From contig NZ_CP028858.1 in assembly GCF_003058365.1 (NCBI RefSeq), positions 992,001 through 1,056,000 on the forward strand: DNA of 64,000 bases. Direction: 5' to 3'. Under the pieces are notes generated by a model, which had not been told where the DNA came from, did no database searches, and worked only from the letters and a program-made list of their open reading frames with translations. Shown here piece by piece: positions 28,720-60,271 of the stretch. The DNA is from Halococcoides cellulosivorans (GTDB lineage Archaea > Halobacteriota > Halobacteria > Halobacteriales > Haloarculaceae). A program made the position numbers and the translations under genes. How positions within the stretch are numbered: the stretch's first letter is position 1; each line of letters begins with the position of its first letter.

Positions 28720-30369
28720 TCAGACCATCTCGAACAGTGCGAGGACGTCCTGCATGCCGACGCTGCCGTCACCGTCGAAGTCGTAGTACTCTGCGTTGTT
28801 CCGGGCCGAGGTCGACTCGGAGTTCTGGAACAGCACGTTCACGTCGGGGAAGTTCAGCTCTCCGTCACCCGAGAGGTCCTCGTACAGACCGTCGCCGTCG
28901 GGGTCGGTCGCGCCCTGTGGCCAGGTCGGGCCGGTCGGATCGTCCGTTCCGACCGAAATCGTTGTCGACGGGGTCGACGCGTCGATGGGCGTGCCGGCCC
29001 CGTCGATCTGGAGGGTCGTGATCGAGGTCGAGAGGTCGGCCGATCCATCGCTCTGGCCGTCGAGGCTGAGTGTCGCCAGAAGCACGTCGGTCTCGCCGCC
29101 GCTGTAACTGTCGACGGCGTCACTCGCCTTGATCGTCACGGCAGATCCGTCGTCGGTGGTGCTCGCGGAGCTCACGTCGCTGAACTCGTACGGGAAGCTT
29201 GCGGGGTCCGCGCCACGTCCGGTGGGGAACTGCAGGACGCTCGAATCGCTCACCGAGATGTCGAGTTCGTACCCCGCGAGGCCGCCGGAGGGCACCTGAT
29301 CGAGGACCACGTCCACGGCCACGCTGTCGCCGGCGTCGATCGACGACGAGGACGGCTCCAGCAAGAGCTGCGAGCCGCCGTCGTTCGGGTCGTCAGTGGG
29401 CGTGGGTTCGTCGGTGGGCGTGGGGTCGTCGGTGGGCGTGGGGTCGTCGGTCGGGGTCGGATCGGTGGGCGTGGGGTCGTCGCTTGCGGACCCGTTGCCC
29501 GCCGTGTAGGTCGTCCCGTTGACGGTCAGCCCGAAGTGGTTGAACGTGATCGACCCGCTCGCGTACCCCTGGTACTCGGTCCCGAGTTCGACGCCCGTGA
29601 AGATCATGTCGCCGCTGGGGTTGAACCGCTGATCCATGTCGTCCATGACGACCGTCAGGTCGACCTTGCCGGTCTCCATGCCGCCGTCGACCCAGTAGAT
29701 CAGCTGCGGTGCGCCGGTCCCGCCGTCGTTGTTGGCCCAGAACCGGATCGTGTTTCCGAACTGGTCGGAGCCAACCTCTTCCCAGGGCTGGTTCCACTCC
29801 CAGGCACTGCGGTGCTCTTCGTTCCCCCTGAGGACGAGCATGACCTCGTAGTCGTTGGCGGTCGGCTGATTCTCGACGGGATACTCGTTGAGCAGCCACC
29901 ACTCCTCGGCAAGGTTCCACTCCCCTCCCGAGATGTTGATATCGGTGTCGATCTCCATCACGAGCTCGTCGATGTTCCGCCGCTCTGTCGGGAACGGGGG
30001 CGTGTTCGTGCTCTTGCCCCACGGGCGGTCACCGATGTACAGCTGGGGATAGTTGATGGAGCCACCCTGGCCCGTGAAGTCCCAGCCGAAACTCCCGTCG
30101 TCGTTGCGCCAGATGCACTGCGGGGCTTCCGAGTCGCCCCACTGGTTGTCGATCAGCGCGACGTCCTCGGTAACCGTGACCTCCTCGTAGGTCTCCTGGC
30201 CGTCACAGATCTCTTCGGCTTTCGCCCCGGATGCCAGCGACGCGCTGCCGAGCGCGACGGCCCCGGCCCCCGTCGCGAGGCCAGCCTTCAGGAACTGGCG
30301 TCGCGATCGATCGCTCACTTCGGTGTACTGTCCCCCGTCCGTCGTCTTCTCTGTATTGTTGTCTGTCAT
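28720..30369 (-). CDS. Tat-exported GH12 endo-beta-glucanase with linker, cohesin-like domain and dockerin-like domain
   Basis: A 549-residue extracellular enzyme. Order: twin-arginine leader (RRQFLK at 23-28); GH12 domain (about 45-290) with INYPQLYIGDRPWG, the nucleophile motif YEVMLVL (E175) and the acid/base motif ELGTEY (E265), matching Pyrococcus EglA-type GH12; a Thr-Pro-Asp linker (about 296-331); a cohesin-like beta sandwich (about 335-475) with SIDAGDSVAVDVVLDQVPS and GLAGYELDISVSDSSVLQF; and a C-terminal dockerin-like module (about 483-549) with loops DLSGDGELNFPD and DFDGDGSVGMQD. GH12 enzymes cut beta-1,4-glucan or xyloglucan. ATG at 30369 follows a good TATA box; an upstream in-frame start at 30420 would lie before it. 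Cohesin plus dockerin in one enzyme is unusual. Confidence 0.88.
   Translation of the reverse strand: MTDNNTEKTTDGGQYTEVSDRSRRQFLKAGLATGAGAVALGSASLASGAKAEEICDGQETYEEVTVTEDVALIDNQWGDSEAPQCIWRNDDGSFGWDFTGQGGSINYPQLYIGDRPWGKSTNTPPFPTERRNIDELVMEIDTDINISGGEWNLAEEWWLLNEYPVENQPTANDYEVMLVLRGNEEHRSAWEWNQPWEEVGSDQFGNTIRFWANNDGGTGAPQLIYWVDGGMETGKVDLTVVMDDMDQRFNPSGDMIFTGVELGTEYQGYASGSITFNHFGLTVNGTTYTAGNGSASDDPTPTDPTPTDDPTPTDDPTPTDEPTPTDDPNDGGSQLLLEPSSSSIDAGDSVAVDVVLDQVPSGGLAGYELDISVSDSSVLQFPTGRGADPASFPYEFSDVSSASTTDDGSAVTIKASDAVDSYSGGETDVLLATLSLDGQSDGSADLSTSITTLQIDGAGTPIDASTPSTTISVGTDDPTGPTWPQGATDPDGDGLYEDLSGDGELNFPDVNVLFQNSESTSARNNAEYYDFDGDGSVGMQDVLALFEMV
29390..29476 (-). repeat. 18-bp tandem repeat encoding the TPTDDP linker
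   Basis: Units of the type tcgtcggtgggcgtgggg start at 29390, 29408, 29426 and 29444 (the first and fourth slightly changed), followed by a 15-bp partial unit at 29462. They encode the (D)DPTPTD linker between the GH12 and cohesin-like domains. The copy number is likely variable between strains. Confidence 0.85.
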
Positions 30370-30400
30370 AAATGCCGAGCCGTGATGTTCCCCTACGCCT

Positions 30401-30410
30401 TTATTATATG
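30401..30410 (-). promoter_or_regulatory. TATA box of the first GH12 gene
   Basis: On the minus strand the element reads catataataa, centred about 36 bp before the ATG at 30369, predicting a leader of about 10 nt. It is one of the best TATA matches in the window and supports the shorter GH12 start. Confidence 0.65.
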
Positions 30411-30506
30411 GCTTCGCCACTCAAAAATTAATCGAAAATCTGCCGATCTCACCTCCAGCGCCCCTATCTGACGGCAAATCGACTGGAACCCGAACACGGC
30501 GGCCGG

Positions 30507-31655
30507 TCAGACCCGTTCGAACAGCGCGAGCACGTCCTGGGAGTCGAGGTCGTCGTCGCCGTCGAAGTCGTAGTACTGGCTGTTGTCCTGGGTGACCGAC
30601 TGATCGGTGTTCTGGAACAGGCGGTTCACGTCGGGGAAGTTCAGCGTTCCGTCACCCGAGAGGTCTTCGTACAGGTCGTCGCCGTCGGGGTCGGTCGCCC
30701 CGTCGGGCCAACTCGGGCCGTCCTGGGTCGTGGTGGTCGGGTCCGGCGTCGTGGTCGTTTCGACCTGTCCCGCCCCGCTCTCGTAGGTCTGGCCGTTGAT
30801 CGTCACGTCGAACTGCTGGAAGTGAGTCTCGCCACTGGAGTACGGCCAGTACTCGTTGCCCAGTTCGATCCCCGTGATGAACAGCGACGGGTCGACCCCG
30901 AGGTCGTTCGTACAGTAGTCGACGATCGGCTTCAGATCGAACTTCCCGTTCCGGGGCCCGCCCTGGACTTTGAAGATGTGGAAGGTCGCCCCGGTTCCCC
31001 CGGAGGGGTAGGTCGTCCAGTGGTCGACGGTGTTGCCGAACTGGTCGGTCCAGACGTTCCCGCGCTCGACGCCGGAGTGGCCGTGGCCACCGCCCCAGTC
31101 GAGATACAGCATGATCTCGTGGGTGTGGGTCTCGGCGTTCTCCGTCGGATCCTCTTCCGCGAGCCACCACTCCTCGACGAAGTCCCACTCGCCACCGCTC
31201 GCCGAGATGTCGACGTCGACCTCGATCCAGAGTTCCTCGACGTCTTGCTGGCGAATCGGGAACGCATCCGCTCCCGAATCGTTCCCCCAGGGGCGGGTGC
31301 CACAGTACACCTCCGGATAGTTGATGTCCCAGTCACCGACGGAGTCGCCCGACTCGGCGTCCCAGTCCCACCCGTACGTCCCGTCGTCTTCGATCCAGAT
31401 GCACTGGGCCGCCGACGGCAGCGACCACTCGTTGTCGAGCATCTTGAACGAGTCGTTGATCGACCACTCGACCTCTTCTTCCTCCAGGGTCCCCTGCTGG
31501 TCGCAGTGTTCTTCGATTCGCGCTCCCGAAGCCAGCGACGCACTCCCCAGTGCGAGTGCCCCGGCCCCGGTCGCAAGCCCGCCTTTCAGGAACTGCCGTC
31601 GCGACCGTGGCGTTCTCGATTCCCCCGCCGTCGATGTGCGCTCGAAATCTGTCAT
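30507..31655 (-). CDS. Tat-exported GH12 endo-beta-glucanase with dockerin-like domain
   Basis: A 382-residue paralogue of the neighbouring GH12 enzyme. It has a twin-arginine leader (RRQFLK at 19-24), a GH12 domain (about 40-295) with INYPEVYCGTRPWG, nucleophile motif HEIMLYL (E180) and acid/base motif ELGNEYW (E268), a short Thr-rich linker (TTTTPDPTTTTQDG), and a C-terminal dockerin-like module (about 316-382) with loops DLSGDGTLNFPD and DFDGDDDLDSQD. It lacks the cohesin-like domain of its partner. The ATG at 31655 is preferred over a TTG three codons upstream. The tandem GH12 pair probably arose by duplication; each gene has its own AT-rich upstream region. Confidence 0.9.
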   Translation of the reverse strand: MTDFERTSTAGESRTPRSRRQFLKGGLATGAGALALGSASLASGARIEEHCDQQGTLEEEEVEWSINDSFKMLDNEWSLPSAAQCIWIEDDGTYGWDWDAESGDSVGDWDINYPEVYCGTRPWGNDSGADAFPIRQQDVEELWIEVDVDISASGGEWDFVEEWWLAEEDPTENAETHTHEIMLYLDWGGGHGHSGVERGNVWTDQFGNTVDHWTTYPSGGTGATFHIFKVQGGPRNGKFDLKPIVDYCTNDLGVDPSLFITGIELGNEYWPYSSGETHFQQFDVTINGQTYESGAGQVETTTTPDPTTTTQDGPSWPDGATDPDGDDLYEDLSGDGTLNFPDVNRLFQNTDQSVTQDNSQYYDFDGDDDLDSQDVLALFERV

Positions 31656-58576: not shown

Positions 58577-60271
58577 ATGGTCGACGCTCGGACTCTCCGG
58601 TCCTGGCGAGCGGTCGGCGTCCTCGCGTTCGCAATCGCTCTCGTCGTCGCGAGCGGGCCGGCCCCGGCGATGGGTCGAACTGCGAACACCACCGGGCCGC
58701 CAGCGATCGCGGACGCTCCACCGACCGATCCCGACGGAGACGGCCTGTACGAGGATCTGAACGGCAACGGCCACTGGGGATTTCCGGACGTCAACCTCCT
58801 CTTCCAGCACACCGACGATCCACGCGTCGTCGATCACACCGCGGCGTACGACTTCGACGGCGACGGACAGGTCGATATGCAGGACGTCCTCGCGCTGTTC
58901 GAACACGACCGTCTCGTCGCACGGGCCACACTCGATCCCGCGGGGTCGGTCACTCCGGGCACGACGGTCACGCTCGACGGCAGGAACTCGACTGCCTCGA
59001 CCAGTATCGACGCCTACACCTGGCGGGTGAACGGGTCCCGCGTGGGAGCGGGCGAGACCGCGACGATCGAGGTCACCGATCCCGGTCCGAAGCGGGTGAC
59101 GCTTACGGTCCGTGATGCCGACGGGCGGACGGCAACGACCACCGAGACCATCACGGTGCGATCGGCCGACCAGCGCGTGATCGGCTACTATCGATCGTGG
59201 TCGCGATACCAGCGCGACTACCGGCCCGCGGACGTGCCGCTCGATCGGGTGACCCACCTGAACTACGCCTTTCTCGACGTCCGATCGAACGGGACGGTCG
59301 TGCTGGGCGATTCCTGGGGCGACCGGCAGAACCTCAGGGCGTTCCGCAATCGGAGTCGTGCCCACCCCGAGACGACGATGCTGCTCTCGATCGGCGGGTG
59401 GAGCTATTCCGAGGCGTTCTCCGATGCGGCGATGACGCCCGAACGCCGCGAGCGGTTCGCTGAGTCTGCGGTCCGCATCATGCGCACCTACGAGTTCGAC
59501 GGCATCGACGTCGACTGGGAGTACCCCGGCGGCGGTGGCGCGCCAGGTAACACCGTCCGCCCCGACGACGCCCACAACTTCACGCTGTTGATGGAAACGC
59601 TCGACGAGCACCTCGAACGCGCGGGCGAGGCCGACGGGCGTGAGTACACCACGTCGATCGCCGTCTCGGCCGATCCCGAGAAAGTCGACCGACTCGAATG
59701 GGATCGCCTCGAAGCTCACGTCGATCTGGTGAATCTGATGACCTACGACTACGGCGGACCTTGGAGTGAGACCACCGGGCATAACGCCCCGCTCGACCGA
59801 CCGGAGACCGCGGCGGTCGACAGCGTGAGCGAGGCGACGCGCTCGTTCGCAGACACCGGGTACCCCATGGAGCGCGTTCAGGTGGGCGTCCCGTTCTACG
59901 GGCGTGGGTTCGCGGGCGTCGAGAACGGTACGGCCCACGTCGGCCAGGCGTTTTCGGGAACGCCCGACGGCACCTACGGGACGAGCGGGGTCTACACCGC
60001 ACGCGATATCGAACAGCGACTCAACGACTCTGCGGCCGGGTACCGATTTCACGAGGCGGCCGCCGCGCCGACGCTCTATCTTCCCGACCGGGAGATACTG
60101 ATCAGCTACGAGAACGAGCGCTCGATTCGTGCGAAAGCTCGCTTCGCCCGCCGGTCGGGAACGGGCGGGGTGATGGTCTGGGCGCTCGGACAGGATCCGC
60201 GGGCGCGACTGCTCGCGGCGATCCGGGCGGCGCTCACCACGTCAGATCGTCCTTCCACAGCATACAAATAA
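58577..60271 (+). CDS. secreted GH18 chitinase with N-terminal dockerin-like module and PKD domain
   Basis: A 564-residue exported enzyme. A Sec-type signal (about 1-32, WRAVGVLAFAIALVVASGPA) is followed by a dockerin-like module (about 49-112) with DPDGDGLYEDL, loop DLNGNGHWGFPD and loop DFDGDGQVDMQD, then a PKD-type Ig domain (about 115-195) and GH18 (about 200-555) with SIGGWSYSE and the catalytic DGIDVDWE (308-315). It would hydrolyse chitin or chitooligosaccharides. The dockerin sequence is very close to those at the C-terminus of the GH12 enzymes but sits at the N-terminus. The gene separates ftsZ1 from secE, an insertion into a conserved string. Confidence 0.92.
   Translation: MVDARTLRSWRAVGVLAFAIALVVASGPAPAMGRTANTTGPPAIADAPPTDPDGDGLYEDLNGNGHWGFPDVNLLFQHTDDPRVVDHTAAYDFDGDGQVDMQDVLALFEHDRLVARATLDPAGSVTPGTTVTLDGRNSTASTSIDAYTWRVNGSRVGAGETATIEVTDPGPKRVTLTVRDADGRTATTTETITVRSADQRVIGYYRSWSRYQRDYRPADVPLDRVTHLNYAFLDVRSNGTVVLGDSWGDRQNLRAFRNRSRAHPETTMLLSIGGWSYSEAFSDAAMTPERRERFAESAVRIMRTYEFDGIDVDWEYPGGGGAPGNTVRPDDAHNFTLLMETLDEHLERAGEADGREYTTSIAVSADPEKVDRLEWDRLEAHVDLVNLMTYDYGGPWSETTGHNAPLDRPETAAVDSVSEATRSFADTGYPMERVQVGVPFYGRGFAGVENGTAHVGQAFSGTPDGTYGTSGVYTARDIEQRLNDSAAGYRFHEAAAAPTLYLPDREILISYENERSIRAKARFARRSGTGGVMVWALGQDPRARLLAAIRAALTTSDRPSTAYK
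60261..60270 (+). promoter_or_regulatory. TATA-like element for secE inside the chitinase 3' end
   Basis: The element catacaaata is centred about 26 bp before the secE ATG at 60292 and overlaps the chitinase stop codon. It would let secE-spt5 be transcribed independently of the inserted gene. Confidence 0.4.

Follow-up and report, generated by a model that had tools for sequence, protein, structure and literature searches.

Two neighbouring genes of the haloarchaeon Halococcoides cellulosivorans encode secreted cellulase-like enzymes that end in dockerins, and one of the two chains also carries a sandwich domain resembling a cohesin. This raises the question of whether the pair forms a small device of its own or is part of a larger assembly. 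Cellulosomes, plug-and-socket assemblies of enzymes for the breakdown of cellulose, have been described from bacteria, and cohesins and dockerins of archaea have been treated as non-cellulosomal. Here, we propose, with a probability of roughly three in four, that the two enzymes belong to an archaeal cell-surface cellulosome.

Both genes lie on the reverse strand of the 64,000-nucleotide stretch that we analysed (the window) and are separated by 86 bp. P0001 (28720..30420, 566 aa) comprises a Tat signal, a GH12-type catalytic domain (29485..30216, about residues 69-312), a linker rich in proline, threonine and aspartate that was delimited from the sequence (29371..29484), a cohesin of a divergent haloarchaeal type (28930..29370) and a C-terminal dockerin with two F-hand-like calcium loops and an extra DPDGDG loop (28723..28908); its translation probably starts at the ATG of residue 18 (30369). 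P0002 (30507..31664, 385 aa) consists of a Tat signal, a GH12-type catalytic domain, a threonine linker and a dockerin matching PF00404 (30510..30695). Both signals contain the motif RRQFLKxGLATGAG and matched the Pfam family TAT_signal with 21.9 bits (P0001) and 24.4 bits (P0002). The Pfam scan of the two proteins gave no GH12 match. A sequence search of P0002 against the PDB retrieved the GH12-type cellulases 3wx5 (E 4.5e-5) and 1h0b (3.1e-4), which we take to be GH12 entries. The catalytic domain of P0001 was assigned by its 40% identity to that of P0002 and by the conservation of E183 and E271 (P0002 numbering) in both domains, a candidate GH12 catalytic pair. Open reading frames, TAT_signal, PDB and Dockerin_1 matches all agree with an earlier sequence-only reading of the locus as a tandem pair of Tat-exported GH12-type enzymes with C-terminal dockerins. 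When each protein was scored on its own, the dockerins reached 21.2 bits (P0001) and 16.5 bits (P0002), both below the Dockerin_1 cut-off of 22.9; in the whole-genome scan, P0001 exceeded it with 25.0 bits and P0002 stayed below. The calcium loops quoted for the two modules are present, but with 69% identity the modules are not near-identical as had been stated.

The only other dockerin protein of the window is P0003 (58577..60271, forward strand), a GH18 chitinase with a signal and a PKD domain. As predicted for this chitinase, its dockerin (58724..58906, matching PF00404) is of the same type; it is located at the N-terminus instead of the C-terminus. H. cellulosivorans reportedly does not grow on chitin (PMC4569967).

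The sandwich domain of P0001 is predicted to be a cohesin by its fold. PF00963 is its best Pfam match, with 14-17 bits below the gathering score of 24.1. After 54 relatives had been aligned, the module was modeled with AF2 and reached a pLDDT of 92.7 and a pTM of 0.88. All 26 Foldseek matches at E<=1e-3 were cohesins, followed by an antibody as first non-cohesin (E 1.2e-3, TM 0.28). VIA-align ranked only cohesins or cohesin-like modules at positions 1-46 (Z 16.2 to 11.6), among them the cohesin-like module of Clostridium perfringens (16.2) and the cohesins of C. thermocellum (1ohz, 14.5) and Archaeoglobus (14.4), and the first non-cohesin appeared at rank 47 with Z 11.5. Neither search found another Ig-like family that fitted the sandwich better than cohesins do. 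Profile comparison points in the same direction: hhalign against those haloarchaeal cohesins that Pfam detects, and that themselves match PDB cohesins, gave a probability of 97.6 (E 2.6e-12), and a profile of the genome's own cohesins retrieved ScaC (5lxv) from the PDB at 4.9e-4. The wider 54-sequence profile was too broad and lost its specificity in the PDB sequence search, where it found one weak cohesin (E 0.69) below chance matches to beta-clamps.

The genome (one contig, 2,723,120 bp) contains 69 matches to PF00404, 49 of them above the cut-off, and 67 form a single family, the remaining two being a fragment and a member of a separate classical pair. Within this family the mean identity is 62%; the module is C-terminal in 64 cases, and a twin-arginine motif occurs near the N-terminus of 50 of the proteins. 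The loop aspartates at positions 9, 20, 41 and 52 are invariant in all 67 members, and P0001 and the genome's dockerins combine a PF00404 match with two F-hand calcium loops, as dockerins of type I do. A scan of 65 dockerin proteins revealed 22 GH5, five GH10 and three GH9 enzymes as well as GH43, esterases, CBM6/35, lectins and fn3, that is, the many dockerin-bearing enzymes for plant polysaccharides expected of a cellulosome. Recent duplication was considered as the cause of the uniformity of the dockerins but accounts for it less well: among conserved residues, identity at four-fold degenerate sites is only 54% (39% at random), so that the sequences are better read as being under selection, although this is not proven.

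On the receptor side Pfam alone would mislead, because the scaffoldin cohesins score as nothing significant there. With the P0001 module as query, 11 more copies were found in the genome, and profiles recovered 15 divergent cohesins in nine proteins, missed by Pfam or below its threshold. One of these proteins (G000:C1:381689-383887, 732 aa) has a twin-arginine signal and combines an N-terminal domain with three cohesins in tandem and a dockerin; as judged from its sequence, this is the layout of a scaffoldin. Among the 67 family members, its dockerin deviates most (z -3.2) and lacks the otherwise near-invariant residues P19, N22, Q26, Q51 and E58. The N-terminal domain, modeled with a pLDDT of 89.7, has its nearest folds in CBM8, CBM30, CBM29 and CBM11 (best Foldseek match CBM11, 7.7e-4; VIA Z 12.0 to CBM8), which suggests by fold only that it is CBM-like. 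Anchoring at the cell surface through a cohesin protein, a further trait of cellulosomes, is indicated by PGF-CTERM anchors above the cut-off on two cohesin proteins of 267 aa (1864935-1865738) and 1665 aa. In addition, a 669-aa protein with three cohesins adjoins another cohesin protein, of 905 aa, which has a hydrophobic segment at its C-terminus. With about 67 dockerin proteins, 15 divergent cohesins, a separate three-cohesin scaffoldin and anchored cohesins in the genome, the minimal two-gene device that had been proposed for this locus is too small a description. The putative scaffoldins have three to six visible cohesins each versus dozens of dockerins, which counts against a cellulosome. 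A search for GH48 gave no match, but its control gave none either.

Above its threshold, PF00963 detects only two classical cohesins in the genome, both at 2196219-2198362 (L035:9220-11360). They belong to a separate classical cohesin-dockerin pair, in which a NosD-like protein containing both modules adjoins a protein with one cohesin and a hydrophobic segment at the C-terminus, and were rejected as the main receptor of the 67 dockerins. Two large GLUG-repeat proteins (L045:363-4424 and L014:4300-8079) each contain cohesins and a dockerin.

Comparison with 195 genomes of the order places these modules in a wider context. The cohesin family occurs in 69 genomes, the haloarchaeal dockerin in 85 and both in 64, a co-occurrence (64/69) that is inflated by shared ancestry and by cohesins and dockerins located in the same protein. 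No genome other than those of H. cellulosivorans and Natronobiforma has as many as 12 scored GH5 matches. Natronobiforma cellulositropha (G174) shows a layout like that of H. cellulosivorans. It has 47 dockerins and a putative GH5 scaffoldin whose cohesins number at least five and which runs off the end of its contig, on which a membrane-anchored single cohesin and many dockerin genes are also found. Another contig end carries a near-identical cohesin, a CBM5/12 above the cut-off and a PKD domain, and the two ends (C23/C60) could be parts of one scaffoldin gene. Two dockerins share 62-75% identity when they come from one genome and 36-52% when they come from different genomes; in terms of sequence, the dockerin code is genome-specific, with Natronobiforma having its own. 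In the cohesin tree, the scaffoldin modules of Halococcoides group apart from those of Natronobiforma, with weakly supported deep forks, which fits separate amplification. Three other genomes (G067, G114, G137) combine several GH5 enzymes with a small number of dockerins and with few P0001-type cohesins or none at all. A two-gene locus that is widespread among the haloarchaea (L116-L133) combines a PhoX phosphatase ending in cohesin and dockerin with a small membrane-anchored cohesin; it is likely a surface-tethering pair and possibly the ancestor of the larger systems. On balance we favor, with less assurance than for the cellulosome itself, a history in which a cellulosome working at salt saturation arose through separate amplification of such a PhoX-dockerin/anchored-cohesin pair in Halococcoides and in Natronobiforma, using cohesins that evade Pfam.

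What sequences and models show are the modules with their counts and architectures, the fold of the cohesin, the surface anchors and the parallel systems of other haloarchaea; binding, specificity and a two-tier assembly we infer from these. Some 66 secreted proteins, enzymes as well as accessory components, would plug their near-uniform dockerins into the divergent cohesins. Enzyme dockerins would occupy the cohesins of the scaffoldin at 381689-383887, whose own different dockerin would in turn dock onto a cohesin anchored at the cell, for instance that of the 267-aa PGF-CTERM protein, while its CBM-like domain would hold the substrate. P0002 would then be an ordinary dockerin enzyme. P0001 would act as an enzyme-adaptor that inserts its dockerin into a scaffoldin and offers its own cohesin as a further socket, by which the complex would be extended or branched. 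The published physiology of HArcel strains is consistent with a cell-surface cellulosome: all of their activity on amorphous cellulose was bound to the cells, which colonised the fibres, and no accumulation of reducing sugars was seen (PMC4569967). HArcel1 and the Natronobiforma strains AArcel2/5 have been described as cellulose specialists with dockerins left unmentioned (PMC10267330).

A simpler arrangement would be tethering in one step, in which single enzymes dock on the two PGF-CTERM cohesin proteins of 267 and 1665 aa and the tandem cohesins matter little. The wide distribution of the PhoX-dockerin and anchored-cohesin locus and the presence of anchored cohesins in H. cellulosivorans itself would fit this arrangement. 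However, both specialists have proteins with three or five cohesins that contain a CBM-like domain or lie near CBM5/12, and the scaffoldin dockerin differs from the enzyme type, so we regard one-step tethering as unlikely. Should the dockerins instead be substrate-binding modules, as has been stated for the haloarchaeal dockerin (PMC10963439, PMC13260240), the enzymes would act free and the cohesin-like domains would be structural spacers. That cellulases can work without a cohesin-dockerin system is illustrated by the GH5 enzymes of G067, G114 and G137 with their few dockerins and cohesins. Yet the calcium loops are intact, the sequence codes are genome-specific, dockerins co-occur with cohesins, and the same module is attached to many cargo families including PhoX phosphatases, which have no polysaccharide substrate. 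As substrate binding also gives no reason for proteins with tandem or anchored cohesins, it seems a very unlikely role.

P0001 could also polymerize without any other protein if its dockerin bound the cohesin of its own or a sister chain, since both modules reside in one chain, the dockerin is of the enzyme type and the cohesin is closest to the scaffoldin cohesins (49-50% identical). Exclusive self-binding is nevertheless extremely improbable because dozens of other proteins carry the same dockerin, and the short spacer between cohesin and dockerin may argue against docking within the chain. Self-association of P0001 as such, which the sequence-only reading had put forward, is possible but is not the interpretation that we favor.

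The proposed cellulosome shares several features with those of clostridia (Clostridium thermocellum CipA/OlpA), such as dockerin-tagged GH5, GH9 and GH10 enzymes, a putative scaffoldin that joins tandem cohesins to a domain of CBM-like fold, a distinct scaffoldin dockerin and surface-anchored cohesins. It differs in being archaeal, aerobic and salt-saturated, in Tat export, in cohesins below Pfam detection and in the extra DPDGDG loop before the dockerin. Clostridia anchor their complexes by SLH domains and have a main scaffoldin with nine cohesins, whereas H. cellulosivorans has PGF-CTERM anchors and three cohesins; GH48, found in clostridial cellulosomes, was not detected in H. cellulosivorans by the search with the silent control. 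P0001 resembles the catalytic scaffoldin ScaA of Acetivibrio cellulolyticus, in which a GH9 catalytic domain shares its chain with cohesin and dockerin, but has a GH12-type domain in place of GH9 and a single cohesin; the Natronobiforma protein combines GH5 with several cohesins. Archaeoglobus fulgidus (cohesin structure 2xdh) likewise has archaeal cohesins and dockerins, which are non-cellulosomal there. In ANME archaea, scaffoldin-like proteins have been reported that combine a dockerin with as many as five cohesins; the common dockerin cargo there consists of binding proteins of ABC transporters (PMC9012536), in contrast to the cellulases and hemicellulases of the cellulose-growing haloarchaea. 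Dockerin enzymes and multi-cohesin scaffolds called from genomes define cellulosomes of soda-lake bacteria, which live in related habitats but use SLH anchoring; no Natronobiforma cellulosome was called in that study (PMC11700989). We found no prior report of an archaeal cellulosome in the open-access literature, likely because the cohesins escape Pfam.

If true, the proposal would take the cellulosome beyond the bacteria into a second domain of life and into settings that are aerobic and saturated with salt, and would explain both the cell-bound activity on insoluble cellulose and what distinguishes specialist degraders. Cohesin-dockerin pairs that withstand salt would also become available for the design of enzyme complexes, and one can directly test whether docking at molar salt depends on calcium.

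Module-rich genomes are not confined to the two specialists, with 33 dockerins in G127 and 16 in G166. A 544-aa protein of G166 (L135) and a 541-aa protein of G061 (L134) each contain three cohesins together with a dockerin. In a further haloarchaeon, G087 (C1:460000-499800; L101, L102), a cluster of subtilases (Peptidase_S8), most of them with Pfam-detectable cohesins and a C-terminal dockerin, contains 14 cohesins within about 21 kb and looks like a multi-protease cohesin-dockerin system.
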